Assembly (NCBI GenBank): GCA_029860345.1
Contig: JAOUBJ010000004.1
Location: 62,001-126,000, forward strand
Reading direction: 5' to 3'
DNA length: 64,000 bases
From: Candidatus Zixiibacteriota bacterium
GTDB taxonomy: Bacteria; Zixibacteria; MSB-5A5; GN15; FEB-12
A program made the position numbers and the translations under genes. Below, in pieces: positions 1,363 to 34,652 of this stretch. Below the pieces are notes generated by a model, which saw only the letters and a program-made list of their open reading frames with translations, did no database searches and had not been told where the DNA came from. The stretch's first letter is position 1. The number at the start of each line of letters is the position of its first letter.

Positions 1363-3861
1363 ATGCGCCAACTACCAACTGTCTGCATTATTGCAGTCTT
1401 GATGTTGTTACCAACCGAGGGTAACACGCAAACAACTCGGATCGACTGGCCCTCATCGCCCGCAAACACGCCCTTCTGGCGTCCGACCTCGACAGAGCAG
1501 TTAGACCAACTTCCAGCCTGGTTGCAGGCGCAGTACAAGCCAAAGCAACCGCCACCAAACCACATGAGCAAAACACCCGGTCATTACACGAGAGACGACT
1601 GGGCCGCTGCCATCGACTACACCTGGGGAAGTGGCGAACCAGCAGAGATCAAGGAGTTCGTCTGGGCCGAGTACTGGGGCATCACCGACAGCCTGTACGC
1701 TTGTTGGCAGGACATCGACGACGATTGGGACTCGATCCAGGTTTCCGCATTGAACGAACTCGCTTCGGGCGTTAGTCGGGGTCGCTTTGCCGCCATGTTA
1801 ACTTATGCCAGTATGGCTCTCATGGAGAGTCATTCTCGTTGCTTTGATTACAATCTGGCCCTGACTCAGCCGTTACCGGGGGTACCGATCATGACGATTG
1901 GTGACTGGGGTTCCAGCACTCATTTCGGCGCCTCTTTGACACCGCTTGAGGACAGTACTCTTCTCGTATATCAAACAACGCCGGCCCACGTACTGACGTT
2001 GGTTCCGGGAGATCGAGTTCTCGGCTATGACGGCGTCCCCTGGGCGGAACTCGGCCGGGAATTGTTGGCAGCCCAACTTCCGACCACGTGGAGCATGTGG
2101 GGAAGCTCCCAGGAGGCTTTTGACCACTCTGTAATGATGGCCGCCGGACTCAACTGGCATCTGTTTGACACCATCGACATTGTCAAGTTTGTATCCGGCG
2201 ATACTCTGCATCTCGCCACCGGTGTACTCGACGGTGTGCCGCGACACATCGAAAGTAGGGAGCAACTTCCGGTACCGGGCATACCCATGCCTGATACGAC
2301 GGCGATCACATGGGGCATAATCGAAGGTACCCAGATCGGCTATGTTTATGGCCTCTACTGGGGGGACAATGCCCAAACTGAGTTCCTGGCCGCTATCGAC
2401 ACACTGCTGATCGACCATGAAACACTCGGGCTGATTTTCGACTTCCGCACCAATTACGGCGGCAATATGTTCCTGGCCTACCCGGGTTTGGAACGTCTGT
2501 TTGCCGACACAGTGTGGACAATCGGATTTGATCAGCGCTGCGATCCATTCGACCATGATCTGATGTGCCTGGCCGCCGATCCTTCCGGATACCGAATCGA
2601 TGGTGACTCCAGTTCGTTTTATGATCGCCCTATTGCCATCCTGACCGGTCCGGGCGCGGTGAGTTCCGGTGATCAGATCGCACTGGCCATGGCCTTTCAC
2701 CCCAAGGCCAGAACCTTCGGCAAACCGACCGCCGCCGCCTTTAACGGCCCCCTGATGGGCACCTTCGCCGATGGATTCTGGATGGGCGTGGCCGTAGCGG
2801 ATGCCTGGCTGGTCAGCAATCCAGGGCATTACTTGACCCACGACTACATCCCGGTTGACGAAACTGTCTGGCTGACGCCGGAGGGTGTCGCGCAAGGGCG
2901 AGACGATGTCGTTGAAGCGGCCGCGACATGGATCGAGACTGACCAGGCGATTTTTCCGAACAGTGACTTGAACGCCGGACAAGCACCCTGCACGGTTTCG
3001 TTCGAGGGCTGGACATCGCACCCGATCGACCAATGGAGTTGGGAATTCGGCGACGGCGACTCGGCCTCCGGACAAAACCCTGTTCACGTTTACACCGAAG
3101 GCGGCATCTACGACGTCACCGTCAGTGGTGTCGGAACCGAGGGAACCTACAACTACCAACGACGCTCGGCTGTGACCGTTCTTGCCGACACCATGCGAAC
3201 CGATTCGGTTGAGCTCACAGACAGCGCCACGTCGGTTGAGATTGTTGTGTACGCCGTCAACACCGTACCGCTCAGTCGGCTCGATATTCCGGTGGAGTTC
3301 GATGGTGATCTCAGCCTGATGTACGACACCTTCTCGACCGAGGGTTGCCGCACCGAGTACTTTGAGGTCGCTCGGCTCCAGAATTACTCACCGGTGAACA
3401 GTCGACTTAACATCAGGCTCGAAGCGTCCGGCGCCATCGTCCGGCCGGACTTGCCGGTCGGAGACGGGCCGGTGTTGAAACTGTACCTGAAACCGGACGG
3501 TGCACCTCAGCCGGGTCAGGATGCAACGATCGAATTCGATGGCTACTCGGACTACCTGCCGCGTATGTATAGCCGTGTCGCCACCTACCTGGCTCGTTCA
3601 CAACCCGGTATGGTGTTCTTCGCGGGTTGTTGTAACGGCATTCGCGGAAATGTCGATAGTGACCCGGACGACGAGACCGACATCTCCGATCTGGTTTTTC
3701 TGGTCAGCTACATGTTCGATCTGGGACCGGCTCCGGAGTGTGATGAGGAGGCGAATGTAGACGGCGATCCCAACGGTCTCCTGGATATCGCCGATCTGGT
3801 CTTCCTCGTCGACTACATGTTCAACGGCGGCTGGCCTCCAGGCGCCTGCCCAATTCATTAG
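1363..3861 (+). CDS. Secreted S41-like peptidase with PKD, cohesin-like and dockerin-like domains
   Basis: An 832-residue exported protein. A signal peptide (about residues 1-23) starts at ATG 1363, preceded by GTGGAG; a GTG four codons upstream overlaps that site. The middle part (about 320-500) looks like the C-terminal processing peptidase family S41: an IFDFRTNYGG strand followed by GPGAVSSGDQ, where the serine would be the nucleophile. A PKD domain follows (WEFGDGDSASGQNPVHVY), then a beta-rich stretch resembling a cohesin, then two calcium-binding dockerin-like repeats (TDISDLVFLVSYMF and LDIADLVFLVDYMF). It probably acts outside the cytoplasm on proteins. The general lysine partner of S41 was not identified with certainty, so protease activity is inference. 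Confidence 0.82.
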   Translation: MRQLPTVCIIAVLMLLPTEGNTQTTRIDWPSSPANTPFWRPTSTEQLDQLPAWLQAQYKPKQPPPNHMSKTPGHYTRDDWAAAIDYTWGSGEPAEIKEFVWAEYWGITDSLYACWQDIDDDWDSIQVSALNELASGVSRGRFAAMLTYASMALMESHSRCFDYNLALTQPLPGVPIMTIGDWGSSTHFGASLTPLEDSTLLVYQTTPAHVLTLVPGDRVLGYDGVPWAELGRELLAAQLPTTWSMWGSSQEAFDHSVMMAAGLNWHLFDTIDIVKFVSGDTLHLATGVLDGVPRHIESREQLPVPGIPMPDTTAITWGIIEGTQIGYVYGLYWGDNAQTEFLAAIDTLLIDHETLGLIFDFRTNYGGNMFLAYPGLERLFADTVWTIGFDQRCDPFDHDLMCLAADPSGYRIDGDSSSFYDRPIAILTGPGAVSSGDQIALAMAFHPKARTFGKPTAAAFNGPLMGTFADGFWMGVAVADAWLVSNPGHYLTHDYIPVDETVWLTPEGVAQGRDDVVEAAATWIETDQAIFPNSDLNAGQAPCTVSFEGWTSHPIDQWSWEFGDGDSASGQNPVHVYTEGGIYDVTVSGVGTEGTYNYQRRSAVTVLADTMRTDSVELTDSATSVEIVVYAVNTVPLSRLDIPVEFDGDLSLMYDTFSTEGCRTEYFEVARLQNYSPVNSRLNIRLEASGAIVRPDLPVGDGPVLKLYLKPDGAPQPGQDATIEFDGYSDYLPRMYSRVATYLARSQPGMVFFAGCCNGIRGNVDSDPDDETDISDLVFLVSYMFDLGPAPECDEEANVDGDPNGLLDIADLVFLVDYMFNGGWPPGACPIH

Positions 3862-4126
3862 GTCGGGACCCTCCCAGCGGTTCCGACAAGTCTTGTAGGG
3901 TAGGTCGCTCTTCTCTCTTGGAGACCTGGTTTAACATCTTTGTAGGTCAGGACCCCTGTGCTTCTGACACAAACCGCGGTCCCGCGGAACGGACCCACCC
4001 TACTATATTGACACACTCAACCATCCTATTCCTCGACCACGTATCACTGGTATGAAATCCAATCGCTCCCTGCTTTGTGTCTTCAGGGTGCGACGTCCGG
4101 AAACCGTCGAAACTCAGGAGAAATAA
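3862..4126. repeat. Short intergenic repeats before the MBL gene
   Basis: Contains a degenerate GTAGGTCGCTC...GGAGACCT hairpin (about 3899-3930) and a GTAGGTCAGGACCCCTGTGC hairpin (about 3943-3973), both members of families seen across the window. No promoter was identified with confidence; the ribosome site CAGGAG lies just before 4127. Confidence 0.6.
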
Positions 4127-5098
4127 ATGTCGTTAAGAAAAATCGCAATACCTGCTCTACTCATTACCCTGAGCGCGGCACAGTCGATAGCCACCGAACT
4201 GCCCAAGGATAACTACATTCTCAACCTCTATGATGCCTTTGGCGAAGAACAGCCCGGGCTCACTCAGGACTTTGGCTTTTCGGCGCTGGTGAAGTACAAC
4301 GGCTTGACTATTCTGTTCGATGGCGGCACCAACGCCGATCTGCTCAAATCCAACTGTGAAGCACTGGGCGTGGACCTGTCCAAAGTCGATTTTGCCGTAG
4401 CTTCGCACAGCCATTTTGATCATATCAATGGCTTCGACTATCTTTTGAGTGTCCATCCGGATGTCAAAATCTACTTCCCCTACGATCCATTTTGGGGCGC
4501 GCCATTGCCGTTCGATGTAACCGGACAGGAGCACGAACAGTGTGAACATCTGCCCAGAGAACAAAAATACTTCGGTGGCGGCGACACCAAGTTCACGTTC
4601 AACCAAAGCGGTCGGTTTTGGGGTGCGAACATCGAGTATGTCAAAGGCTCGAAAGAGGTCCAGCATGGTGTCAACCTTATCTCCACGCGCTCGCCGTTCA
4701 TGGGTTACTTTACCAGCTATCCGAATGTCGCCCTGACCGGTGAACAAGTGGACGATGAGTCGCTCAAAAAAATCGGTTTGCCGGAACTGTCGTTGAGTCT
4801 CCGTACCGACGACGGTGAGGTTGTTATAGTCGGTTGTTCGCATTCGTTGGTGACAACGATTGTTGATTCGACCAAGCAACAACTCGACAACGACATCGCG
4901 CTGGTGATGGGTGGTTTTCATCTGTTGCCGTATGGCACAGAGGAGATTACCGACATGGCCACCAAGATGAAGGATCTCTTCGGTGTCAAACGGGTCGCTC
5001 CTGCGCATTGCACCGGGCATCTTGGTTTCAAGATTTTCGGCGAGACCTTCGGCGAGCGCTACCACCTGGCCGGCCTCGGCTCGGTGATCGAATTCTGA
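4127..5098 (+). CDS. Exported MBL-fold metallo-hydrolase (COG1237-like)
   Basis: A 323-residue metallo-beta-lactamase-fold hydrolase with a likely signal peptide (SLRKIAIPALLITLSAAQSIA). The zinc motif HSHFDH lies in ASHSHFDHINGF, and later histidines are in VGCSHS, GGFHLL and APAHCTGH. Order and spacing fit the branch that contains archaeal dihydropterin-linked beta-ribofuranosylaminobenzene phosphate synthase-like proteins, which include many uncharacterised hydrolases. A CAGGAG site precedes the ATG. It stands alone between repeat fields. The reaction is unknown; the fold call is safe, the signal peptide makes a pterin-pathway role unlikely. Confidence 0.85.
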   Translation: MSLRKIAIPALLITLSAAQSIATELPKDNYILNLYDAFGEEQPGLTQDFGFSALVKYNGLTILFDGGTNADLLKSNCEALGVDLSKVDFAVASHSHFDHINGFDYLLSVHPDVKIYFPYDPFWGAPLPFDVTGQEHEQCEHLPREQKYFGGGDTKFTFNQSGRFWGANIEYVKGSKEVQHGVNLISTRSPFMGYFTSYPNVALTGEQVDDESLKKIGLPELSLSLRTDDGEVVIVGCSHSLVTTIVDSTKQQLDNDIALVMGGFHLLPYGTEEITDMATKMKDLFGVKRVAPAHCTGHLGFKIFGETFGERYHLAGLGSVIEF

Positions 5099-5157
5099 TG
5101 TCACCCTGATGTCACCTTGATCGCAGTTGCTGGGGCGTCACACCGAAGCCACTGTAA

Positions 5158-5590
5158 ATGGAGCAGGGCGCGGAGCGCCAAGGACCGATTCATCGGTGTC
5201 ACCCTGAGCACGGTCGATAGCCGGGTATCGACAACGCCCGAATGGCGAGACACTCCGCGAGGCGCGGGGTGTCATGCCGGACCTTGATCCGGCATCCAGT
5301 CTTCTCTTGTAGGGCAGGTCTCTCTTTTCTTGGAGACCTGCCACCCGGTCAAGCCGGGTCCTTTCTTGTAGGTCGAAACCCCTGTGGTTTCAACAGTAGG
5401 TCAGGAGCTCTGTGCTCCTGCCATCTTCGGCGGCATCGCAGGGATCCCGCCTAACGGGATTCATGCTTCGACTTCGCTCAGCATGAGGTGATGAATCACT
5501 CTCTCGCGATGCGCCCGCTACTACTTTCACACAGCGTTGTGGTGGTCGAGTCTTCAGACTCGGCCACACGGACCCACCATACAGGCCGTC
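5158..5590. repeat. Repeat-filled intergenic region (5099-5606)
   Basis: No gene. Recognisable palindromes: ACCGATTCATCGGT at 5184-5197; a GCCGGA...TCCGGC element around 5271-5299; GCAGGTCTC...GAGACCTGC at about 5316-5343; GTCGAAACC...GGTTTCAAC at about 5370-5393; CAGGAGCTCTGTGCTCCTG at about 5399-5420; GCTTCGACTTCGCTCAGC at about 5464-5482; GTGATGAATCAC at 5488-5499; and a GAGTCTTCAGACTC element at about 5549-5562. Each has relatives elsewhere in the window. Confidence 0.75.
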
Positions 5591-5606
5591 CAAGCTGACG
5601 ACAAGC

Positions 5607-6062
5607 CTACAGCGGTCGGTGATCGGTCAGGGTAGCGGTCACCCACCAGGTTCTCAGCGGACTGGCATAGAATCCCGGATTTGCGGCAATCTGACAGACC
5701 GTTGTCTGACTCCCTTCTTCGGTCACCTCGGCCACCCGCACTGTAGCCGCATCGAACTTGAACCCGTTCGGCTCCATTTCGTCCGCGATGACATGGCCGC
5801 CAATCCAGAACACCCGCACCGGGCACTTGCGCTTGTTAGTGGTCATCCAGCAAGTCACCTGACAGACGGTGGTACTGTCTTCGATCTGAATCCACATGTT
5901 TGACCCGCACAGGTCCTCCAGGTATACTTCGATCGGCAGGCCGTCACAATTGGACGGCGGACCGCCACCACCGGGCTTCTTAGCGCCGACATTGACCCCG
6001 ACAAGGACCACGGCCAGCAGTGCCACCGGGATGAGAGCCGCGATTAGACGATACTTCTTCAT
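5607..6062 (-). CDS. Small secreted protein of unknown function
   Basis: A 151-residue protein with a clear signal peptide (KKYRLIAALIPVALLAVVLVGV) and six cysteines in the mature part, arranged as NCDGLP, DLCGSN, VCQVTCW, KRKCPV and VCQIA. The ATG at 6062 has GGAGG 7 nt upstream. The two QTT/STTVCQ phrases (TTVCQVTCW and TTVCQIAAN) suggest an internal duplication of a small beta unit. I do not recognise a family. The cysteine pattern and export suggest disulphide-bonded envelope or extracellular location. Confidence 0.75.
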   Translation of the reverse strand: MKKYRLIAALIPVALLAVVLVGVNVGAKKPGGGGPPSNCDGLPIEVYLEDLCGSNMWIQIEDSTTVCQVTCWMTTNKRKCPVRVFWIGGHVIADEMEPNGFKFDAATVRVAEVTEEGSQTTVCQIAANPGFYASPLRTWWVTATLTDHRPL

Positions 6063-6198
6063 GTTGGTTCCTCCTTGCAGCGATAGGTTTGTAGCGATTG
6101 GTCGGACTTAGCGCTGTATTCTTACAACTCTCAGCAGCAAATGTCAAGTCTTGTGGGGCAGGCCTATCCTTCCTGCGATTTGCGGTGACCCACCGCAT

Positions 6199-6227
6199 GT
6201 GGTCGGCGTACGTCCCCGTGCGCCGAC
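6199..6227. repeat. 29-bp direct repeat, left copy
   Basis: Identical to 7021-7049. It starts GTGGTCGGCG, contains TACGTCCCCG and ends TGCGCCGAC. The two copies flank the outer-membrane protein gene at 6372-6959 in the same orientation, and weak similarity continues to the right of both (GCGGCAGACGGG versus GCGGTAGACGGG). The rest of 6063-6371 shows nothing else I can name apart from the ribosome site of the next gene. Confidence 0.85.
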
Positions 6228-6371
6228 AAAGGCATCGCGGCAGACGGGCGGGCCATCGGGCCTAAACTCACAGCGATTCCGACCGATAACTATCAGGTGT
6301 GCAGAGTTCATACAGTGCAGATGAATTCTGGTTCAATCGGAGAGTTAAACACTTTAACACAGGAGTCGATT

Positions 6372-6959
6372 ATGAAGAAAACTCTGCTTATCGTAGCAAT
6401 CGCTTCTCTGTTCGTCGTATCCGCGCTCTCCGCGCAGATGCGCGATTTCTCAGGGAAGAGCTGGGTATCCGGTAATCTGGGATACGCTGTGGGAACCGGC
6501 GATGCCTTCGCAAGTTATTCGGAGCCGATCACCAATGTTGAGTTCTCGACAGGTGCCGGTCTTGGTTTCGGTGGCCAGTTCTACTATGGCCTCAAAAAGA
6601 ACTTCCTTATTGGCGGTGAGGTGATGATGCAGAGATATACTGTTGACATTTCAGCTCCAGCCAATTTGGCCCTGAATTTTCCAGGCATCGATATGTCGGA
6701 GAGCACTACCGAGACCAATGTAATTGTGAACGGACTCTACGGTGTAAAACAGACCCGCAAGTCAGACATTTTCCTCATGGGAGGGCCTGGCATGTATGAC
6801 TTTGGCGGATTCGAGTTTGGTTTGAATACCGGCCTGTTCTGGCGCCACCAGGTCTCAGAATCGGTCCATCTTTTTGGCATGCCCCGCATGCACGTGGTCT
6901 TTACCGATGCCACGCCGATGATGTTCCAGTTTACGATGGGTGCCCAACTCTCGTTGTAG
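6372..6959 (+). CDS. Outer-membrane beta-barrel protein
   Basis: A 195-residue protein with a signal peptide ending in ALSAQ, followed by short amphipathic strands with turns, such as NLGYAVGTGD, GGQFYYGLKKNFLIGGEVMM and GLNTGLFWRHQVS. It ends in MGAQLSL, a hydrophobic terminus of the kind used for barrel insertion. This fits an 8-stranded OmpA/OprF-like or opacity-type barrel. ATG 6372 is preceded by CAGGAG; an upstream start at 6297 would mask the signal peptide. The gene is monocistronic, with its own intrinsic terminator. Specific function is unknown. Confidence 0.85.
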   Translation: MKKTLLIVAIASLFVVSALSAQMRDFSGKSWVSGNLGYAVGTGDAFASYSEPITNVEFSTGAGLGFGGQFYYGLKKNFLIGGEVMMQRYTVDISAPANLALNFPGIDMSESTTETNVIVNGLYGVKQTRKSDIFLMGGPGMYDFGGFEFGLNTGLFWRHQVSESVHLFGMPRMHVVFTDATPMMFQFTMGAQLSL

Positions 6960-6985
6960 ACGGCAGCACAGATTTTGGTTTATCC

Positions 6986-7015
6986 GAGGCAGGTTTTTCA
7001 CCTGCCTCTTTTTTT
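6986..7015 (+). terminator. Intrinsic terminator of the barrel protein gene
   Basis: Perfect 9-bp stem GAGGCAGGT/ACCTGCCTC with a TTTTC loop, followed by seven T residues, 26 nt after the stop codon. Confidence 0.95.
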
Positions 7016-7020
7016 GTTTT

Positions 7021-7049
7021 GTGGTCGGCGTACGTCCCCGTGCGCCGAC
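7021..7049. repeat. 29-bp direct repeat, right copy
   Basis: Identical in sequence and orientation to 6199-6227. A GTGATAAATCAC palindrome follows at 7114-7125, overlapping the end of the next gene. Confidence 0.85.
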
Positions 7050-7121
7050 GACGTCGACTCGCGGTAGACGGGGACATCCACCGCGCACGGGAATCTGGAA
7101 TGGGTTTGTTTTGGTGATAAA

Positions 7122-7757
7122 TCACTCTTTTGCGCTTCGCGCGTTGTTGGTGTCAGACACTGGCTTAACCGGTTCGGGAGGGGTGTTCGAAATGGGTTTG
7201 TTATGCTTTTTTTTACTTTCCTGGCGGTCTTGGAGGCGGAACAGGAGAGTATAGCAGCGGGTGAGTTGGCGATCCAAACGCATCTCGTAGCGTTGCAGGG
7301 TGTCACGGTGGGACTCACTGGGCATTGACTGGGAGCCGAGAATGTCGGCGTTGCGTCGTTCAACGGTGTCATCATCGAGGTCATCGGGATCGATAAAGAC
7401 GCCAAACTGGCGACCGCGCTCAATGTCTTCGGCGGCCTGGTCAAGTTGACAGTTGATTTTGGATTTCTCGGCGTTGATGACGCGACGGTAGCGCCACAGG
7501 GCGTTGGCGATTTTCAGGACGAGGTGTTCCTGGAGGATACCTTCCGGTTTGAGTTCTTCGATGAGGGAGTCGAGCAATTGTTGGTATTGTTCGGGGTCTT
7601 CGTTGAGGTGGGGTGAGTTGAGGACAATGTCTGTGGCGTGGAGACCGTGCTTGATGGCGTTACGACTTGAGGCCGCTTTGCCATTGACACTCTTCGGCCC
7701 GGTCGATTTCTTGGCGTTACGCCTGTTGGCTGCGATCTGCTTTTCACTCGTAGGCAT
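7122..7757 (-). CDS. Unknown-function protein, QIAANRRNAKKSTGP family, copy A
   Basis: A 211-residue cytoplasmic-looking protein. Its first 45 residues are strongly conserved with the gene at 18213 (SEKQIAANRRNAKKSTGP, then GKA.SSRNAIKHGL). A helical region follows (LQEHLVLKIANALWRYRRVI) and a second helix near the end of the core (YEMRLDRQLTRCYTLLFRL); the tail is low-complexity, rich in Pro, Asn and Thr. I recall this N-terminal motif in multicopy families of several environmental phyla, without an assigned function. Start ATG 7757 is preferred because both copies share AAGGAC-TGTCGT just before it. The basic N-terminus could bind nucleic acid; that is a guess. Confidence 0.75.
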   Translation of the reverse strand: MPTSEKQIAANRRNAKKSTGPKSVNGKAASSRNAIKHGLHATDIVLNSPHLNEDPEQYQQLLDSLIEELKPEGILQEHLVLKIANALWRYRRVINAEKSKINCQLDQAAEDIERGRQFGVFIDPDDLDDDTVERRNADILGSQSMPSESHRDTLQRYEMRLDRQLTRCYTLLFRLQDRQESKKKHNKPISNTPPEPVKPVSDTNNARSAKE

Positions 7758-7812
7758 ACGACAGTCCTTTATCATAAAGGAGTCACCTGCGATTTGCCGT
7801 GATGTTGTGGGG
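7758..7812 (-). promoter_or_regulatory. Conserved 55-nt leader of copy A
   Basis: Read on the minus strand it begins CCCCACAACATCACGGCAAA and ends AAAGGACTGTCGT directly before the ATG. The gene at 18213 has a leader of exactly the same length with the same ends (18158-18212). The inner 20 nt differ, and here include the perfect palindrome CTTTATGATAAAG. Conservation at both ends suggests a shared promoter, operator or recombination element. Confidence 0.6.
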
Positions 7813-7859
7813 AATTAGTTGGGGGGAGGCTGAGAGCGGAAGAGTTGTCGGGATGTTGA

Positions 7860-8348
7860 TTAATACTCTGACTCGCCAGCAAAAATCTCTTCCACGTTTT
7901 CTACCCATTCCCAAGGAGTTAGGGTCACGGTTTCCTTGGGTCCTCTTCTGACGATCACACGCTCCACCCCTGAGTTCATGATGATTCGCTTGCACATTTT
8001 GCACGGTTCAGCATCGCTTACGATATCGTTCGTCTTAAAGTCGAAACCTACCAAGTACATGGTCGCACCGATCATTTGTTCACGGGAGGCGTGGATTATA
8101 GCGTTCATCTCTGCGTGTACTGATCTGCAGAGCTCATATCTCTCACCATGAGGTATGTTGTACTTTTCCCGGAGACATTGGCCAATGTCGTTACAGTTGG
8201 GTGCTTTTCTAGGGGATCCCGTATATCCAGTGCTTATGATATGATCATCAATTACTATTATCGCACCGAAGTTCCGTCTAAGGCAGGTTCCTTTGCGTGA
8301 CACCGCTTCGGCTATTGACAAGTAGTAATCTTCTTTTGTCATTTTCAT
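7860..8348 (-). CDS. dCMP deaminase (ComEB-like)
   Basis: A 162-residue zinc deaminase that converts dCMP to dUMP. Zinc and catalytic residues are all visible: HAE at 78-80 and PCKMC at 115-119. The insert with cysteines (PNCNDIGQC, then YELCRSVHAEMNAI) is characteristic of dCMP deaminase rather than cytidine or tRNA deaminase. The start at 8348 has AAGGAT 7 nt upstream. It is the last gene of a four-gene minus-strand operon and starts 40 nt after the MazG-like gene. Base composition is more AT-rich than in housekeeping genes nearby. In this setting it may alter deoxynucleotide pools or supply a modified base pathway. Confidence 0.92.
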   Translation of the reverse strand: MKMTKEDYYLSIAEAVSRKGTCLRRNFGAIIVIDDHIISTGYTGSPRKAPNCNDIGQCLREKYNIPHGERYELCRSVHAEMNAIIHASREQMIGATMYLVGFDFKTNDIVSDAEPCKMCKRIIMNSGVERVIVRRGPKETVTLTPWEWVENVEEIFAGESEY

Positions 8349-8388
8349 TTTGTTATCCTTCAAGATCATTCGGTCAAAGGGGCATTGA

Positions 8389-9447
8389 TCATGGCTTATT
8401 GGATTCTTCCGCCGCAGCTTCCAAGCTTGCTTCTGCAACCAACTCTATTGCTGGATAGAACAAGCATTCGCATGATTCGTGTTCACAGGCATAACACTTC
8501 ATTGGTTGCTCAACAGTCGATGACTCATAGCGGTCCTTAAGTACTTCCTCAATATGGAATTCCGTTACAACACTATCGTCTATTTTCTCATGCGTCAATA
8601 TCTCAAACAACTTGAGTTGAACTGCACATAGCCATGAAAAGGTGTCAGCCAGCTCAACCACGAAATCCATCTTGGCCTTTACGATTCTGGACCTAATGAG
8701 GAGAGGGTCGTTAGATGTCAGATCGATATCCTTCATGGCGTCCTTGGTTCTGGGTTTATCGTAACGCTCTTTGAGTTCGCTCATGGTAGTGCTGTATTCT
8801 GTCACGAGGCCTTCGATCGATGAGATGTGCTTTAGATATGCTTCGTCAACACCCGTGATGTTGGCCTCCAGAATGCCACGAAATTGAATTAAGTTCCGGA
8901 CCGCTTTAGCTTCTTCTCCAGCTTCCTCCAAGAGGTGAAACCCTACGCTCTCGAGCGTCTGTAGATGAATCTGCCCGCTATATATCTTCCAAAAGTCAAA
9001 AAGCCAGTTGTCAATGGATCGGTCTTTGTAGGAGTTGTTCTTCTTTCGCTCGAGTAACTGTGGATACTTAGCGTCTTTATCTTCATCCTCATCCATTTCC
9101 TCAGGAGAACATCTGCAGGGAGATTTGATGCAGTGTCCACATTCTCCGGGAAATTTGAGTGCTACAATATCGGAGAGGTTGTCACTTATCTTGAAGAGGT
9201 GATCGCTGCCGTTGCTGCACTTGCCAACGTAACAGCACATCCAACAGAAGGCGTGAGCTGCACTCTGGACAAGATCCCTGTAATTGGTTCTTCTAATTGC
9301 CTCACCCACGGTACTAACATGAGCCATAACAGCGCTCCAGAATTCCTCGGGTTGTCTCGAAGCATCAGGTTTTGAATACAGAGTTTGGAAACCTTCAGTC
9401 CACCCCTGAATCGATCGTGATTCAATTTGAGGCCAAAAACGAGCCAT
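8389..9447 (-). CDS. Duplicated MazG-like (all-alpha NTP pyrophosphatase fold) protein with two Cys clusters
   Basis: A 352-residue protein. The second half carries MazG-type metal motifs, EEAGEE at 174-179 and ELAD at 265-268, in helices as expected for an all-alpha nucleoside triphosphate pyrophosphatase. The first half repeats the plan in degenerate form: VGEAIRR near 49 and AAHAFCWMCC near 64-72, without the acidic ligands. Each half ends in a similar knuckle, CGHCIKSPCRC (103-113) and CYACEHESCEC (318-328), likely zinc-binding. The start ATG 9447 has GGGAGA upstream. It lies 18 nt after the radical SAM gene. The substrate is unknown; the operon partners suggest a (d)NTP. Confidence 0.7.
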   Translation of the reverse strand: MARFWPQIESRSIQGWTEGFQTLYSKPDASRQPEEFWSAVMAHVSTVGEAIRRTNYRDLVQSAAHAFCWMCCYVGKCSNGSDHLFKISDNLSDIVALKFPGECGHCIKSPCRCSPEEMDEDEDKDAKYPQLLERKKNNSYKDRSIDNWLFDFWKIYSGQIHLQTLESVGFHLLEEAGEEAKAVRNLIQFRGILEANITGVDEAYLKHISSIEGLVTEYSTTMSELKERYDKPRTKDAMKDIDLTSNDPLLIRSRIVKAKMDFVVELADTFSWLCAVQLKLFEILTHEKIDDSVVTEFHIEEVLKDRYESSTVEQPMKCYACEHESCECLFYPAIELVAEASLEAAAEESNKP

Positions 9448-27309: not shown

Positions 27310-27632
27310 ACACCCACGTCATGCCGAGGGCAGTCGAGGCACGAGCATTCTTTCTTCGGTACCCCACCTAAAGCGAAGCGACAGGTGGGTTTCCCTGTGA
27401 TCACCAACAATCCCACCCGACGCCAAGCCTCTGGGTGGGGCACCCCGAACATGCCCCTGCCAACCTCATGCACGAGCGGAGTCGAGGCACGAGCATCGGG
27501 TGGCCGCCTCATACCTCGTTTGGGGCGGCAGGCAAATCTGTTTTTCGCACTGCGCGCCATTCAGGTGGTGTTGGTCGACCCCGCCCGACACCTGCAGTTC
27601 AACTTATCGGTTGTCAGGCAAGTCGCCTGACA
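27310..27632. repeat. Repeat-filled intergenic region
   Basis: Gene-free 27117-27764. Elements: CATGCCGAGGGCAGTCGAGG (about 27319), GGTACCCCACCTAAAGCGAA...ACAGGTGGG (about 27358-27390), CCCACCCGACGCC...CTGGGTGGGGCACC (about 27413-27443), a second GAGCGGAGTCGAGGC (about 27476), GGGTGGCCGCCTCATACCTC (about 27499-27528), GTTGGTCGACCCCGCCCGAC (about 27570-27590) and GTCAGGCAAGTCGCCTGAC (about 27614-27630). Confidence 0.7.
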
Positions 27633-27764
27633 GCGCTTGGAAGCTTGCATGGTTCCTCGAAAACCAATTCTTGCCAAATCGACCTAAATGGTCTATGTTG
27701 GCCCAGCAGGATGTGTATAACATGCGTATATGTTTTTAGCCAAAACCAAACGAAGAGATATTCA

Positions 27765-30428
27765 ATGACCTTAGTTAAGAGCCAGAAACTCGGCCCCTAT
27801 GAAATCATCGAGCAAGCCGGCGCCGGTGGGATGGGTGAAGTTTATAAAGCGATCGATACCCGTCTTGAACGAACAGTGGCGGTTAAAGTGCTGCCGTCGA
27901 CCTTTGCCCTGAATCAGGATGTCAAATCGCGCTTTGAGCGCGAAGCAAAATCCATATCGAGTCTCAACCATCCGTGTATCTGCACGCTCTACGATGTTGG
28001 CCAGGAGAACGGCATCGACTACCTGGTGATGGAGTTCATCGAAGGCGAGACGCTCACTGAGCGAATCATGAGAGGTCCCTTGCCGATGAAAGAGCTGCTG
28101 GAAATAGCTGTTCAGATCGCCGACGCCCTCGATAAAGCCCACCGCCAGGGACTTGTCCATCGGGATTTGAAACCGGGCAACATTATGCTGACCAAGACAG
28201 GCGCCAAACTGTTGGACTTCGGACTGGCTAAACTACAAATAGACGGTTCTGGTCCCGAGGTAAAGAGCATCACTCAAACCACCCCACTGACCGGCGTGGG
28301 AACACTCCTGGGGACCATGCAGTACATGGCGCCCGAACAACTCGAAGGTGAGGAAGCCGATGCCCGCTCGGATATTTTTGCCTTCGGTGCAGTTATGTAT
28401 GAAATGGCTACCGGTAGTCGTGCCTTTTCCGGCGGCTCACAGGCGTCGTTGATTGCCTCTATCTTAAAAGAAGAGCCCCGTTCGGTGTCGGAAGTCCAGC
28501 CGATGCTGCCACCAATCTTGGAGCAGACAATCAGCCAGTGCATGGAGAAGGACCCCGACCAGCGCTGGCAAACCGCCGGAGATCTGAAACGCTCGCTCCA
28601 GTGGATAGCCGACGGCAAGATGGGTACGAGAACATCAAGCCTCATTCCGCAAAACAGATCGACTCGTGAGACGATCACCATGATCGGCATGATTTTCTTT
28701 ATCATCGCAACATCGGTGGCCGGTTACCTGTACTGGCAGAAGACCAACGAACCTAAACCGGTCGTCAAGGCGCATCTGCTGGCGCCGGAGGACAACGAGT
28801 ACGGCGATTTTGCCGGAGGGAGTTTCGCTTTGTCGCCGGACGGTGAGAAGCTCGCCTATAGTGCGTCGGACACGGTAACGAACAAGACTCAGATCTGGGT
28901 CAGGCCGCTCAACTCACTGGCCGCCCTGCCGCTGCCCGGTACCGAGAACGCCTTCCTGCCGTTTTGGTCACCGGACAGCAAGTACATCGCGTTCTTCAAG
29001 AATGCTAAGTTGAAAAAGATACTGGCTGCCGGCGGACCCACTTTGACTATTTGCAACGCACCTAACGGACGTAGCGGGAGCTGGAATTCAGAAGACGTCA
29101 TCCTGTTTACGCCGAGCCACATCGGACCTATTCACCGGGTTTCGGCAGCAGGAGGTGAGTCCACACCGGTCACGACTTTGGACAGCAGTTTTGGTGACAA
29201 GACCCACCGCTGGGTGCGCTTCCTGCCGGATGGGAATCACTTTCTTTTCTACGCTCGCACCGGTTCCGGCTCCGGGGGTGAGAAGGATGCTATCTGCATC
29301 GGCTCGTTGGATTCAGACAGGGTTGATCGCATCATTCATGCCAGTTCAACTCTGGATTATGCCAATGGACATATAATCTACCAACGGGAGTCTTCTCTTA
29401 TGGCTCATCCGTTCGATGCTGCTTCGCTTGAACTAACTTCAGATGCTTTTCCACTGGTGGAGGATGTGTCATACCTACAGAACTGGAGCCGGTCTATCTT
29501 TACCGTCTCGAACAACGGGACACTGGTGTATCGCTCCGGCAAACTGAACATCGGCTCGCAACTGATGCTCTTTGACAGAAACGGTGAAGTGCTGGATACC
29601 ATAGGTGATCAGCTGGTTCAGTTCTCTCAGCGACTCTCCCCGGACGAACGGTTCATTGCCATTAGCGTCGACGACCAGGCGAACTCCAACGAGGATATCT
29701 GGACATTCGACATTGAGCGAGGGATCAAAACACGATTCACTTTCGACTCCACCATGGATGCGATGCCGATTTGGTCTCCTGACGGCGAACAAATTGTATT
29801 CCGCTCCGATAGATCAGGCAAGCCAGGCATATTTGTTAAGAATGTCTCCGGACTCGGCGAGATTGAGAAGATTCTGGAGGGTGATAAGGAAGTGTGGCCT
29901 TATAGCTGGACGCCGGATGGTCAGAGTATCATCGTAATGAAGGATGTAACCGACAAGGGAACCGATATCTGGGCTGTTCCAGTTGACGGAGAAAAGGAAG
30001 CGTTCGCTGCCGTCAGTACTAACTTTGATGAGTGGTACCCTGAAATATCGCCCGACGGTCGATGGCTGGCGTATGTGTCGGATGAAACCGGTAAGGAAGA
30101 AATCTATGTGACACCTTTCCCCGGTCCGGGCAGCAAGTGGCAGGTATCTACCAATGAAGGGGATCGTCCGATTTGGCGTGGCGACGGCAAGGAACTGTAC
30201 TACCTGAACAACAAAGAAGAAATTATGGTCGCAGAGGTCGACGGAAGTACGGCCTCGTTCAGGGTTGGGAAAGTCAACAAGCTGTTTGAGATCAATGGGT
30301 CCCGGCCCGGTACCGTTTACGACGTCACCAAAGACGGTCAACGATTCCTGGTGAATCAGAATGTGCAGGCCGTATCGAAATCAAAAGTCGTTCTGGTCCG
30401 CAACTGGGATCACAGCCTGGATCACTAA
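27765..30428 (+). CDS. Transmembrane Ser/Thr protein kinase with C-terminal beta-propeller
   Basis: An 887-residue Hanks-type kinase. Kinase domain at 12-280: glycine loop GAGGMGEV (18-25), Lys41, HRDLKPGN (132-139), DFGLAK (151-156) and APEQ. One transmembrane helix at about 304-324. The rest, about 340-887, holds repeats such as LSPDGEKLAYSA, WSPDSKYIAFF, WSPDGEQIVFRSD and ISPDGRWLAYVSD, which are the PD40/TolB-type blades of an extracytoplasmic propeller. It likely senses an external ligand and phosphorylates cytoplasmic targets. ATG 27765 was chosen because the kinase fold begins right after it; no strong ribosome site. Confidence 0.95.
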   Translation: MTLVKSQKLGPYEIIEQAGAGGMGEVYKAIDTRLERTVAVKVLPSTFALNQDVKSRFEREAKSISSLNHPCICTLYDVGQENGIDYLVMEFIEGETLTERIMRGPLPMKELLEIAVQIADALDKAHRQGLVHRDLKPGNIMLTKTGAKLLDFGLAKLQIDGSGPEVKSITQTTPLTGVGTLLGTMQYMAPEQLEGEEADARSDIFAFGAVMYEMATGSRAFSGGSQASLIASILKEEPRSVSEVQPMLPPILEQTISQCMEKDPDQRWQTAGDLKRSLQWIADGKMGTRTSSLIPQNRSTRETITMIGMIFFIIATSVAGYLYWQKTNEPKPVVKAHLLAPEDNEYGDFAGGSFALSPDGEKLAYSASDTVTNKTQIWVRPLNSLAALPLPGTENAFLPFWSPDSKYIAFFKNAKLKKILAAGGPTLTICNAPNGRSGSWNSEDVILFTPSHIGPIHRVSAAGGESTPVTTLDSSFGDKTHRWVRFLPDGNHFLFYARTGSGSGGEKDAICIGSLDSDRVDRIIHASSTLDYANGHIIYQRESSLMAHPFDAASLELTSDAFPLVEDVSYLQNWSRSIFTVSNNGTLVYRSGKLNIGSQLMLFDRNGEVLDTIGDQLVQFSQRLSPDERFIAISVDDQANSNEDIWTFDIERGIKTRFTFDSTMDAMPIWSPDGEQIVFRSDRSGKPGIFVKNVSGLGEIEKILEGDKEVWPYSWTPDGQSIIVMKDVTDKGTDIWAVPVDGEKEAFAAVSTNFDEWYPEISPDGRWLAYVSDETGKEEIYVTPFPGPGSKWQVSTNEGDRPIWRGDGKELYYLNNKEEIMVAEVDGSTASFRVGKVNKLFEINGSRPGTVYDVTKDGQRFLVNQNVQAVSKSKVVLVRNWDHSLDH

Positions 30429-30474: not shown

Positions 30475-30731
30475 CACCTCATGGTGAGCGGAGTCGAACC
30501 ACAGGCAAGCCTGTTCTTCGCGCTTCGCGCCCTCCACTTAAACCTGCTTGAAAACGTCACCGGCGCGGAGCGCAAGAAAGTGATTTATCACCTCATGGTG
30601 AGCGGAGTCGAACCACAGGCAAGCCTGTTCTTCGCGCTTCGCGCCCTCCACTTAAACCTGCTTGAAAACGTCACCGGCGCGGAGCGCAAGAAAGTGATTT
30701 ATCACCTCATGGTGAGCGGAGTCGAACCATG
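30475..30731. repeat. Perfect 114-bp tandem repeat, 2.25 copies
   Basis: Copies start at 30475, 30589 and 30703 (partial). The unit begins CACCTCATGGTGAGCGGAGT, includes CAGGCAAGCCTG next to TTCGCGCTTCGCGC, and ends in the palindrome GTGATTTATCAC (30580-30591 and 30694-30705). The two full copies look identical, so the duplication is recent. A CCCTTCGACTCCGCTCAGGG element follows at about 30749. Confidence 0.9.
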
Positions 30732-30784: not shown

Positions 30785-31819
30785 TCAGGAAGACGTAGCA
30801 CTCGCCATCTGATATAGACAGACCGGGAACGACTCGTTGAGGCTGCCGGTGTGGGCATAAGAGAGACAGCGGCAGGCTCCGTGACAGTTATCGGCATTAT
30901 CGCAGACCGAGCAGACACCCTCGATCTGATCATGTGGAAACGACTGCATAACCGTCATAGCCGGATCGTGCCAGAGTTCGACCAACGAGCGCCTCTTGAC
31001 GTTACCGACCACGAATCTATCATACAGCATGGCCGTGCAGGGATAGACATCGCCGTTGGCCTTGATATAGCATGTCGCGACACCGGCGACACATTCGTGA
31101 AACCAATAATCCGGCGGTACCGGTCCGAAGCCGGGATCGAAAACCGTCTGGAGACTGTCGTCACTACTCACTTGTTCGATAAAATCATGCAACCGCGACA
31201 GGTCCTCTCCAAACTGGAACCGGCGTCTAATGGCGTCGCTTTTGCTTCGCCCCTCGGGCGTGAAGCCACAGAACCTGATCCCGGCCACGCCTTCGCGCTT
31301 GGCCAGTTTGACCATCTCAAGTCCGTCATCGAGGTTTTCAGCGCCCAATAGCATGGCAATGTGAGTTTCGATCTCAAGCTCCTTACAAACCCGGATGGCG
31401 TTGATGACTTTGAGGAACTCCTCGTCGCTGGTACCCCTGATCCGCCGGCTTCTGGCGGGAGAGGTGCCGTCCAGACTAATCTGGATCATGGCCACCCCTA
31501 CTTTTTTGAACTCTACAGCCCGCTCATGGTCGAGAAGTACGCCATTGGTGGTGATGCCTGAGTTGATCTGATGTTCTGTCATAGCGTATTCTATCAATTC
31601 AGCAAGGTCGGCCCGCAAAAGCGGCTCACCCCCGGTCCATCCGATCATCTTTACGCCCAGTTCGGCGGCGGCGTCGAGGACTCGGCGGCATTCCAGGCTG
31701 GTCAGTTCCGCTTCAGTTTGACGTGCTTCGGGGTTGTAGCAGTGAGGACAATGCAGGTTGCAGGAGTTGGTAATCTCCCAACCCAACATCATCGGTTGTC
31801 TCGGTTCGGTGTCGGTCAT
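30785..31819 (-). CDS. Radical SAM/SPASM protein (PqqE-like), second enzyme of peptide cassette
   Basis: A 344-residue radical SAM enzyme. Cluster motif Cys20-x3-Cys24-x2-Cys27 (CNLHCPHC), SAM motif WTGGEPLLR, and a C-terminal cysteine-rich SPASM-type region (ECVAGVATCYI, YPCTAML, VCSVCDNADNCHGACRC) that would bind auxiliary clusters. SPASM enzymes typically modify ribosomally made peptides. It is the last gene of a minus-strand set: 442-residue SPASM enzyme, 31-codon peptide, this gene. The gap to the peptide gene is 79 nt and contains a strong hairpin. Confidence 0.9.
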   Translation of the reverse strand: MTDTEPRQPMMLGWEITNSCNLHCPHCYNPEARQTEAELTSLECRRVLDAAAELGVKMIGWTGGEPLLRADLAELIEYAMTEHQINSGITTNGVLLDHERAVEFKKVGVAMIQISLDGTSPARSRRIRGTSDEEFLKVINAIRVCKELEIETHIAMLLGAENLDDGLEMVKLAKREGVAGIRFCGFTPEGRSKSDAIRRRFQFGEDLSRLHDFIEQVSSDDSLQTVFDPGFGPVPPDYWFHECVAGVATCYIKANGDVYPCTAMLYDRFVVGNVKRRSLVELWHDPAMTVMQSFPHDQIEGVCSVCDNADNCHGACRCLSYAHTGSLNESFPVCLYQMASATSS

Positions 31820-31857
31820 CGCTGGTCACTTTCCAATGCGTTAATCCAATTGTTGCC

Positions 31858-31888
31858 GAAGGCGTCGGCAGTTGGTGCCGACGCCTTC
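31858..31888 (-). promoter_or_regulatory. Strong intercistronic hairpin after the peptide gene
   Basis: Perfect 13-bp stem GAAGGCGTCGGCA/TGCCGACGCCTTC with a 5-nt loop and no T tract. It lies between the peptide gene and the second radical SAM gene. Hairpins in this position in RiPP operons commonly keep precursor mRNA abundant relative to enzyme mRNA. Confidence 0.75.
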
Positions 31889-31898
31889 GTTATAGCCA

Positions 31899-31994
31899 TC
31901 ACTTAGGTCCCGGCGGCAGAATCAAAAATAGTCTCCGGTAGCAAGGACATGGCTTGCGGGGCGTAATGCCTTTTGGGTTCTCGATCAACTTCAT
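31899..31994 (-). CDS. 31-residue peptide, candidate RiPP precursor
   Basis: A short gene between two SPASM radical SAM genes. Its ATG overlaps the stop of the upstream enzyme (ATGA), and AAGGAGGTGATTGC upstream contains a near-perfect Shine-Dalgarno 5 nt before the start; such a site is far stronger than others in this window and implies high translation. The peptide starts MKLIENPKGITPRK, then has Cys16-Pro-Cys18-Tyr19, two arginines, a hydrophobic run LFLIL and an end rich in Pro and Gly (PPGPK). Cys16 and Cys18 are possible thioether donors. It matches no precursor family I know. What is seen: size, site, coupling, context. The RiPP role is inference. Confidence 0.72.
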   Translation of the reverse strand: MKLIENPKGITPRKPCPCYRRLFLILPPGPK

Positions 31995-33319
31995 GCAATC
32001 ACCTCCTTTCGTGCGTCGTAAAGGTATCTTAGAACAAGCATATCCTCAAGGTTATGCTTGAAGGGTGAACAAGCGCCTTTGTCGGCATCGTTGTTCTTCA
32101 GTCCGTGGAGAGGACATCCGCCCATGCAGAGCGGGAGGATGTCGCACTTTCGGCATTCGATCATGGCAAAGGGGTCCCAGGCGCGGTACTTTTCAAGGTT
32201 GGCTTGTTGTACGCTGTCGATCTGTTCGGTGAAGAGGTTCCCCGTGGATTCGGTAGCCTCTGTGGAGAGTTCCTCCCAGCATCGGAACAACCGGCCGGTG
32301 GGAGAGACCACAAAGGAATTCTCTGTCACGGCGCCGCAGTGTCCGCCGGAGAAAACCTCGGGATAATCCACCATCGGTATGCCCATTGCGAAAAGTCTCT
32401 GATAGAGTTTTACGAGGTACCGGGAAAACTCCCGGTCGGTGAAACATCGGTCTCTGACCGAAGCACAAGCGGCACCCGAGGCTGTGACCTGGGCAAAGTG
32501 AACACCCAACCGGTCGAGTATCGAGCGATCCTTCAGTTCACAGAGAACCTCCACGGCCGTATCGAGATTGTCCCGGTCAATATTGATCCGTACCACGATG
32601 TCGAGTGTTTGGCACGATTGAGCGATGTTGTCAACTATGCGGTCGAACGTCCCTCGGCCGTTTTTCAATCGCCGCCGTTGGTCGTGCGTCCGGCGGGGAC
32701 CGTCGAGTGTCACCTGGGCGGTAGTGATCCCGGCCGCTTTAAGGCGCGCAGCTCGTTCGCGGTCGAGCAGGTAACCGTTGGTAATGATCGAACTCGGCTC
32801 GACCGTAACGCCAAGCCGAGCCGCCAGGGCGGAAAAACCGGCTTGCAACCGTTCTATCGTGGGCAGACACAGAGTTGGTTCGCCGCCGAACCAGGTTATC
32901 ATCAGGCTATCGGCTTTCTCCAGACGGCGTACGGCGAAATCCATCAGTGCCTCTTCGGTCTCGCCGGTCATGCGAAGGGCCGACTGGCTCTCAAAACAAT
33001 AATCGCAGCCAAAATTGCAGGCCAGCGTGGGTGCGATGGTCAGGGACAGACAATCACCGCCCAGCCGCTCGGAAAGGCTCTGGGATTCGATAGCGGACAG
33101 TTCATCGGTGTCGTCATCGACCAGGAAACCGTTCTCAATCAGAGCCGGCCATAACTTCAGGTCGCCGGCAGCCTGCGAAGGCCGGTCGCATGAGAGATAC
33201 TGTTTGATTTGCGGATAAGATTCGCAGTCGATTTCGGCCAGAGCGCCGTTGGCCCCGTTGAACAACAGAGCCTTCCCATCTTCGATGGCGAAGAGGTGTG
33301 CGTACTTAGATGGCTTCAT
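31991..33319 (-). CDS. Radical SAM/SPASM peptide maturase, first enzyme of cassette
   Basis: A 442-residue enzyme. The N-terminal 70 residues (KALLFNGANGALAEID through LIENGFLVDDDTDEL) form the small winged-helix-like region typical of peptide-modifying radical SAM enzymes, where the leader is bound. Cluster motif Cys101-x3-Cys105-x2-Cys108 (CNFGCDYC), SAM motif WFGGEPTL, and a C-terminal SPASM region (FRCWEEL, ECRKCDILPLCMGGCPL, KGAC). This architecture is shared by sactipeptide and related maturases and by anaerobic sulfatase maturases. Start at 33319 because the conserved N-terminus begins there; no ribosome site is obvious. Its last codons contain the ribosome site of the peptide gene. 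Confidence 0.9.
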   Translation of the reverse strand: MKPSKYAHLFAIEDGKALLFNGANGALAEIDCESYPQIKQYLSCDRPSQAAGDLKLWPALIENGFLVDDDTDELSAIESQSLSERLGGDCLSLTIAPTLACNFGCDYCFESQSALRMTGETEEALMDFAVRRLEKADSLMITWFGGEPTLCLPTIERLQAGFSALAARLGVTVEPSSIITNGYLLDRERAARLKAAGITTAQVTLDGPRRTHDQRRRLKNGRGTFDRIVDNIAQSCQTLDIVVRINIDRDNLDTAVEVLCELKDRSILDRLGVHFAQVTASGAACASVRDRCFTDREFSRYLVKLYQRLFAMGIPMVDYPEVFSGGHCGAVTENSFVVSPTGRLFRCWEELSTEATESTGNLFTEQIDSVQQANLEKYRAWDPFAMIECRKCDILPLCMGGCPLHGLKNNDADKGACSPFKHNLEDMLVLRYLYDARKEVIA

Positions 33320-33629: not shown

Positions 33630-34652
33630 ATGAACAGAGTTAACGCATCGAAAAGGGCTTGGTGGCTGGCTGGATTCTTGTTCGTTATCGGCAGTCTGTG
33701 GGCAAACGTACCCATCGCGGCTGAGGAATCGGATCAACCCATGATCGGCCAACCGGCGCCATCATTTTCTCTGCTGGACCTGGACGATCAGAGAATCTCC
33801 TCCGATGACCTGCGAGGTTCCTATCTGGTCATCCACGTCGCTGCTTCGTGGTGACCGTTCTGTAATGCGGAGGCTCCGCATTTGGAAGCGTTACACCGGA
33901 AACATCCCGGCAATGAAGTGCGCGTATTTATCATAGATGTTAATGAAGATAAGTCGGTCGGTGGACCTTGGGCGGCTGGACATGGCCTGACCTTCCCGGT
34001 ATTGTTGGACACCGATGGTAAGGTGTCGGCAAGTTTCGCGCCCGAAGGGTTATTGCCTGAGTTACCCCGTGACCAGATACCGATAGGCTCCAACCTTTTA
34101 ATCGATCCTGATGGGAAGATTCAGTTTTATTCACTGCTGGACACGAAGAACTTTGATTCCAAGCTGGTTGCGCTGAGAGCAAAGCTCTATGCGCTTATCG
34201 CAGCCGAAAGCCCCAAACTGTCAACCGATGGGGCGCAGGTGGTCACAAAGGCGATCTCTCTGAACAAACCTGAATCCGTTACGCTCAAAAAGGGCGGCGA
34301 CGCTGTCACCACAATTGTGATTACGGTAAAGGATGGTTTCCACGTGCTGGCCGACGGCGGTACAGAGAAGACACTCATACCGCTTCGAATCGACCTGGCT
34401 CCGAATCAGTATGTCACTATTGACGAGTTGACCTATCCTGAAAGCGAACCTTTTGATTTTGTCGGCAGTGACAGTCCGTGGCGAGTTTATTCCGGGGATG
34501 TGGCAACGACTCTGAATCTTTCTGTGAGCTCAGGCGCCGGCTCGTGGCAGGGGGCTCTTGAGGGTCAGATTGTTTTTCAAAGTTGCAACGATCGGACTTG
34601 TTTTCCGCCCGATTCAATACCGTTGTCGATTCCGATCAGAATTGGTGAATAG
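33630..34652 (+). CDS. Selenocysteine-containing thioredoxin-like protein fused to a DsbD-alpha-like domain
   Basis: One 340-residue protein if the in-frame TGA at 33852-33854 is read as selenocysteine. Signal peptide (AWWLAGFLFVIGSLWANVPIAA), then a TlpA/ResA-type fold: APSFSLLDLDD, SYLVIHVAASW, Sec75-Pro-Phe-Cys78, EAPHLEALHRKHP, GSNLLIDPDGKI. The TGA falls exactly at the first cysteine of the CxxC site, which a random mutation would rarely hit, and the frame continues without other stops. The C-terminal half (about 205-340) resembles the DsbD N-terminal domain, with the redox pair in CNDRTCFPP. Likely an exported thiol-disulphide oxidoreductase. A Cys-containing TlpA relative is at 38693. 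sel genes are outside the window. Confidence 0.85.
33855..33882 (+). promoter_or_regulatory. Bacterial SECIS-like hairpin
   Basis: Directly downstream of the UGA codon. Stem AATGCGG/CCGCATT (33864-33870 with 33876-33882), 7 perfect pairs, apical loop AGGCT. The loop begins 16 nt after the UGA, and its second base is G. Bacterial SECIS elements are described as having the apical loop 16-37 nt from the UGA with a G in the first two loop positions, so this fits at the short limit. Confidence 0.75.

Follow-up and report, generated by a model that had tools for sequence, protein, structure and literature searches.

Results

Organization of the locus

The DNA analyzed here is a 64 kb stretch of a Zixibacteria genome (hereafter, the window). 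It contains a very small gene, P0001, positioned between the genes of two SPASM radical SAM enzymes, P0002 and P0003. The features of this cassette are listed below in the order in which they are read.

33319..31991, minus strand: P0002, SPASM radical SAM peptide maturase with an RRE-like N-terminal domain (Cys ligands, NCBIfam, AF2 model, PDB match)
31998..32008, minus strand: Shine-Dalgarno element AAGGAGGTGAT of P0001, an exact anti-SD match
31994..31899, minus strand, stop codon included: P0001, 31-aa putative precursor peptide MKLIENPKGITPRKPCPCYRRLFLILPPGPK (held-out HMM, homologues beside the same enzyme pair, purifying selection)
31857..31889, minus strand: intercistronic hairpin with a 14-bp stem and a 5-nt loop, without a T-run (dG -35.3 kcal/mol; z -5.0 and -5.4)
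31819..30785, minus strand: P0003, second SPASM radical SAM enzyme, 344 aa, PqqE/MftC/NirJ-like (Pfam Radical_SAM and SPASM)

Ordinary gene calling misses this 31-residue gene between two radical SAM enzymes. The first-pass annotation had nevertheless placed a tiny gene here, with the strongest ribosome site of the window and translational coupling to the maturase, and each of these points was confirmed: the gene is present on the minus strand, the anti-SD match occurs once in 64 kb, and the TGA of P0002 (31993..31991) overlaps the ATG of P0001 as ATGA. An AGGAGG/AGGAGGTGA element is also found upstream of most homologous peptides.

The flanking regions hold several further features. Divergent from P0002 is an AhpC/TSA- and DsbD_N-like redox gene (33630-34652, plus strand) with an in-frame TGA giving AASW-U-PFCNAE; because of this codon and a genomic tRNA-Sec that scores 69.4 bits and so exceeds the Rfam cut-off, it probably encodes a selenoprotein. 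Just downstream of P0003, positions 30475-30729 comprise two identical 114-nt tandem copies and the 27-nt start of a third (CACCTCATGGTGAGCGGAGTCGAACCA), and diverged copies of a 24-nt core of this repeat occur at 5464 and 25648. Next to the cassette, a gene at 27435-30428 (plus strand) encodes a 997-aa fusion of a protein kinase with PD40/beta-propeller repeats.

Evidence that P0001 is a gene

To evaluate the small reading frame independently of its own sequence, an HMM was built from the peptides of 12 relatives, with the window peptide left out, and used to search the window, divided into 1,976 stop-to-stop segments. P0001 was the sole significant ORF (45.5 bits, E 4.7e-13; runner-up E 0.22). 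No second copy was found in the genome assembly of 4.76 Mb and 35 contigs, in which the best other match had an E value of 0.37.

Two peptide genes of 28 codons each could be compared between the related species G088 and G089. In each of them 6 codons differ synonymously and no amino acid is changed, an ATG/TTG start swap that the script scored as non-synonymous being set aside. For the same pair of species the P0002 gene has 143 synonymous and 90 non-synonymous codons, and the DNA between the peptide genes is 46% identical. Since the changes within the peptide genes are all synonymous while the intergenic DNA has diverged, the peptide family is under purifying selection on its amino-acid sequence. 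Two of the lines of inquiry suggested by the first-pass annotation thus speak for the gene, as this substitution pattern is joined by homologous peptides beside related enzyme pairs in most of 18 Zixibacteria genomes and in one MAG labelled Acidobacteria. We conclude that P0001 is a real, conserved gene under purifying selection.

The two radical SAM enzymes

Homologues begin with a conserved MKxS, and the Met of P0002 that matches it, at 33319, is the likely start; the longer open reading frame reaches 33421. The CX3CX2C motif (C101, C105, C108) and seven SPASM cysteines are invariant in the 10 homologues aligned. The best NCBIfam model, TIGR04334 (Clo7bot maturase), aligns over nearly the full length of the protein with 285.9 bits against a cut-off of 600, followed by TIGR04463 with 282 bits against 525; by sequence, P0002 is a relative of these maturases and not a member of either family. 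The AF2 model (pLDDT 90) begins with a beta-beta-beta-alpha-alpha-alpha arrangement (strands 7-11, 17-21 and 26-30; helices 35-43, 56-62 and 73-86), which is the RRE topology; in the PDB, the best fold matches of the model are CteB (TM 0.71), anSME and TigE (TM 0.66). The N-terminus is therefore predicted, by topology, to be a leader-recognition domain, in agreement with the RRE-like N-terminus proposed in the first-pass annotation.

P0003, found past the hairpin with the SPASM domain that had been expected of it, begins directly at the radical SAM core and has no N-terminal recognition domain. Its neighbors in NCBIfam and PDB are NirJ2, MftC and PqqE, with NirJ2 giving the best NCBIfam score and all scores falling below the cut-offs. 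Its radical SAM and SPASM cysteines are all retained in the aligned homologues, barring N bases in one contig, and its AF2 model is weak in the SPASM part (pLDDT 69.7). The trees of the P0002 and P0003 families are largely similar.

Distribution and variation of the peptide family

The two enzyme families co-occur, on family-1 scores, in 18 of 132 Zixibacteria genomes, and related peptides adjoin the pair in most of these; the pair with a peptide is also present in the Acidobacteria-labelled MAG (L052). Only one further genome, the fragmented assembly G066, holds a P0003-family fragment without P0002. All genomes carrying the enzyme pair are MAGs, and the named relatives within this GTDB family are assigned to Candidatus Zixiibacteriota/GN15, an example being the MAG contig PQAP01000219.1. 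The distribution is patchy: no other species sampled from the window's genus has the cassette. No peptide gene was found at the G029 locus or at a second locus of G011, where both contigs end near the enzymes.

Peptides of the same design were found by the enzyme pair in G009 (MKFIEKPKTAQAKPCPCYNRLFYILPPNPVK), G057 (MKFIESPSTAIQKPCPCYKRLFLILPPLQD), G086 (MKFLEKPQDSVKKPCPCLNRLFLILPPW), G077 (MRIIETARQAQSKPCPCYKMLFLILPPW), G088 (MRIVQKSKETRKPCPCYKIMFYILPPW), G012 (MRFIESKKEAAAKPCPCLNKLYYILPPW) and others, and most members are 27-31 residues long. Class A peptides represent most genomes, including that of the window, and are usually encoded between the two enzymes; exceptions are G012 (gene after P0003) and G064 (gene before P0002). 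The class A core reads [KR]PC-P-CYxx-LF-x-ILPP, and all 11 of the aligned peptides share P2, C5 and I12 of this core. A CPCY center with a Pro/Gly-rich tail had been singled out as distinctive; the element KPCPCYxxLFxILPP is indeed conserved, but the positions after PP are variable and often hold a single W. The precursor is duplicated in G086, G088, G017 and G106. Between one and four diversified copies are present in G016-G018 and G106, and these contain from one to six Cys. Among homologues, both the number and the position of Cys differ. In class B (G030, G056, G084:C42) the peptides lie upstream of P0002, have IIC...GPLxIIC-like cores without CPC and without ILPP, and are associated with directly adjacent enzymes. 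Both enzyme trees place the window enzymes together with those of G064 and of the class B clade, so that the class B enzymes represent a branch inside the family despite their differing cores.

P0001 matched no NCBIfam or Pfam model, and scans of 10 sister peptides with the same collections gave no family beyond a 9-bit match to Clo7bot (TIGR04333, cut-off 31). Among the matches listed in a literature search that combined Zixibacteria with radical SAM enzymes or RiPPs, none mentions Zixibacteria, and a full-text search for Clo7bot with radical SAM returned nothing. In a study that annotated 22 pathways from a SPASM similarity network, the main text includes none with the P0001 motif (PMC9062424). 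The best reading is that P0001 belongs to an undescribed precursor family of the radical-SAM RiPP kind, accompanied by two SPASM enzymes of different subfamilies.

Leader sequence and relation to known systems

The first-pass annotation had noted that the peptide fits no known precursor class. This stands insofar as no curated family was matched, but P0002 is akin to the Clo7bot/TIGR04463 maturases and the leader is shared with Clo7bot. Precursors of Clo7bot and peptides of the P0001 type have a common leader, M-[KR]-[FY]-I-x-[KP], and the peptides of Clostridium senegalense, genuine Clo7bot at 53-54 bits to TIGR04333, start in the same way. Wider-family maturases also adjoin small Cys-rich peptides with this leader: an M-x-[FYILV]-[IVL]-x-P-like start was found in 35 of 154 SD-preceded small ORFs within 1.6 kb of a maturase as compared with 8 of 442 elsewhere (p 2.5e-15, a value that is only descriptive because the pattern was derived from the same loci). 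In this wider family, a Desulfobacterales MAG (L066, DTYH01000194.1) has four P0002-like maturases in tandem at 3279-8651. From these sequence comparisons, the first ~12 residues of P0001 would be a leader read by P0002.

Clo7bot (TIGR04334/TIGR04333) is the nearest maturase family of P0002, and its precursors likewise have a leader and Cys. P0001 differs in being shorter, in its CPC...ILPP core and in having no TIGR04333 match, and P0002 remains far from the family cut-off; at a Clo7bot-type locus of C. senegalense (L069), no P0003-like partner gene was seen. The best solved relative of P0002 is CteB, the SCIFF/ranthipeptide thioether synthase (PDB 5WGG, 5WHY; E 1.6e-8), which like P0002 combines an RRE, a radical SAM core and a SPASM domain with two auxiliary clusters, at an identity of 17-19%. 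P0002 is not a member of the SCIFF maturase family TIGR03974 (72.9 bits, cut-off 425), and P0001, with two Cys, is unlike the SCIFF precursors. The latter have six Cys in 45 residues. The RiPP radical SAM enzyme TigE (PDB 8VPO) aligns at 7-244 with P0002 35-248, covering the N-terminal domain and core (E 3.2e-7).

The nearest solved structure to P0003 is PqqE (6C8V, E 6e-19), and PqqE and MftC similarly comprise a radical SAM core and SPASM domain with no RRE of their own. P0003 is a member of neither the PqqE family (TIGR02109, 145.5 bits, cut-off 381) nor the MftC family (TIGR03962, 158.6 bits, cut-off 265), and no PQQ or mycofactocin genes were recognized near the locus. To our knowledge P0001 resembles neither PqqA nor MftA, and we know of no sequence resemblance between it and the TigE precursor repeats. 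The geopeptide/GeoRSP models (TIGR04280, TIGR04303) include neither enzyme (P0002 148.4 against 400, P0003 132.6 against 400).

The intercistronic hairpin

A 13-bp hairpin had been described ahead of the second enzyme; the hairpin is present, with a stem of 14 bp. No run of T follows the stem, and for this reason a classical intrinsic terminator was rejected as a reading. Across the family, the 90-nt stretch 3' of the precursor gene folds at z < -2 in 19 of 29 genes as compared with 9 of 145 random windows; the control windows were drawn from the same loci and include coding DNA, so this difference indicates structure at a conserved place and not function. The stems differ in sequence and those between genes have no T-run, and in G088 and G084:C42 the strong hairpin comes after the last peptide copy.

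A paralogous RiPP locus elsewhere in the genome

The genome contains a second locus (the PLYG locus, G000:C7:100629-106250; L045:9452-15243) with a precursor (MIYLIEPTPTMQKGCPLKGCTNLCKIKPLYGIIV), two SPASM enzymes, a B12-binding radical SAM enzyme and an ABC exporter, whose enzyme set is paralogous to that of the cassette. Such loci are widespread in Zixibacteria, where precursors of the type M[IV]YLIDP...C..C...PLYGIPP lie upstream of the sister enzymes and match no NCBIfam or Pfam model. The PLYG locus is present in 18 of 18 cassette genomes, while 20 genomes have it alone and 94 have neither locus (Fisher p 5e-12), and the cassette is accordingly found in 0 of the 94 genomes lacking it; within the window's own family the four-way counts are 9, 0, 5 and 40 (p 4e-7). 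Both p values are inflated by shared ancestry. The exporter lies directly downstream in 15 of the 18; in two others the contig ends, and in G106 it was not found.

Discussion

The cassette has the features of a radical-SAM RiPP locus, that is, a short, encoded and conserved precursor beside a maturase; with regard to the sactipeptides and ranthipeptides, the SPASM maturase carries CX3CX2C and seven SPASM Cys and the core has two Cys. This assignment is well supported because the peptide is conserved under purifying selection, the enzyme cysteines are retained and the N-terminus of P0002 has the RRE topology. We consider it probable that P0002 binds the leader and forms a Cys thioether, with P0003 acting as a second modifier or an obligate partner. 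The ~12 N-terminal residues of P0001 (MKLIENPKGITP) would serve as the leader bound by the RRE-like domain, and the core RKPCPCYRRLFLILPPGPK would be the part modified. Given its likeness to CteB and to ranthipeptide and sactipeptide synthases, P0002 most likely forms one or two thioethers from the CPC cysteines, the presumed acceptor being a carbon atom in an aliphatic or aromatic residue further downstream. P0003 would act on the same peptide, either through a second modification or as the obligate partner of P0002 in a complex. The strong Shine-Dalgarno element, the translational coupling and, putatively, the hairpin may together fix the ratio of substrate to enzyme.

It had been proposed that the two enzymes suggest two modifications, but the presence of two enzymes is not proof of this. 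The loci of thuricin CD and ruminococcin C have radical SAM enzymes of one kind. Each of these loci likewise encodes two SPASM radical SAM enzymes with small Cys-containing precursors, and both enzymes install thioethers (PMC12093266, PMC8188230), whereas P0002 and P0003 come from different subfamilies. The two thuricin CD enzymes form one complex, and of their activities just one is strictly required (PMC12093266), so two enzymes need not imply two modifications. P0002 and P0003 might by analogy with TrnC/TrnD of thuricin CD constitute one complex that makes a single kind of link, with one enzyme performing the chemistry; this precedent (PMC12093266), the strict co-occurrence of the pair and the missing recognition domain of P0003 would all fit. 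We regard such an arrangement as somewhat unlikely, as a CteB-like and a PqqE-like enzyme are paired here and the cluster ligands are complete in both.

The affinity of P0003 to NirJ2, MftC and PqqE raises two other possibilities. P0001 could give rise to a redox cofactor or metal ligand that acts inside the cell, as in PQQ or mycofactocin, in place of a secreted peptide, which would agree with a locus lacking an exporter and with the well conserved class A core. The patchy occurrence in 18 of 132 genomes, with the other species sampled from the genus lacking the cassette, the diversified and duplicated cores of G016-G018 and G106, and the lack of a conserved oxidoreductase or peptidase neighbor make this quite improbable. 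Still less probable is a substrate of P0003 elsewhere, such as a tetrapyrrole as for NirJ/AhbD, with its proximity to the peptide being incidental. The best NCBIfam score, to NirJ2, points in that direction, but P0003 is far under the NirJ/AhbD cut-offs and accompanies the P0002 family in all 18 genomes and in the Acidobacteria-labelled MAG, the G066 fragment alone being apart. Finally, the location between genes, the strong Shine-Dalgarno element and the hairpin ahead of P0003 could describe a leader peptide with a regulatory role, its translation controlling P0003. We rejected this reading and give it almost no weight, as the position of the peptide gene relative to P0003 varies (after it in G012; upstream of P0002 with adjacent enzymes in class B), tandem copies exist, and the amino-acid sequence is conserved while synonymous sites change freely.

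A dedicated leader peptidase or exporter, which is a usual but non-obligatory RiPP trait, is not conserved at the locus, and beyond the enzyme pair no conserved neighbors were found outside the syntenic species G016-G018. Since all 18 genomes carry the PLYG locus (with its exporter in 15), export of the cassette product in trans is possible, and that exporter may serve both loci. More tentatively, and in our view with rather less than even likelihood, the two loci could form one interdependent system with a shared exporter, a two-component product and cross-link chemistry not yet described; sister precursor families would then be handled by separate, related enzyme sets with two SPASM enzymes each and the B12 enzyme in the PLYG locus.

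These findings extend the radical-SAM RiPPs by a precursor family and by a two-enzyme architecture, from an uncultured phylum in which the literature searched describes no RiPPs of this type. As the peptide is small enough for synthesis and in vitro assay, the division of work between a CteB-like and a PqqE-like enzyme on one peptide is directly testable, and the nested occurrence with the PLYG locus makes a shared exporter a testable idea as well.
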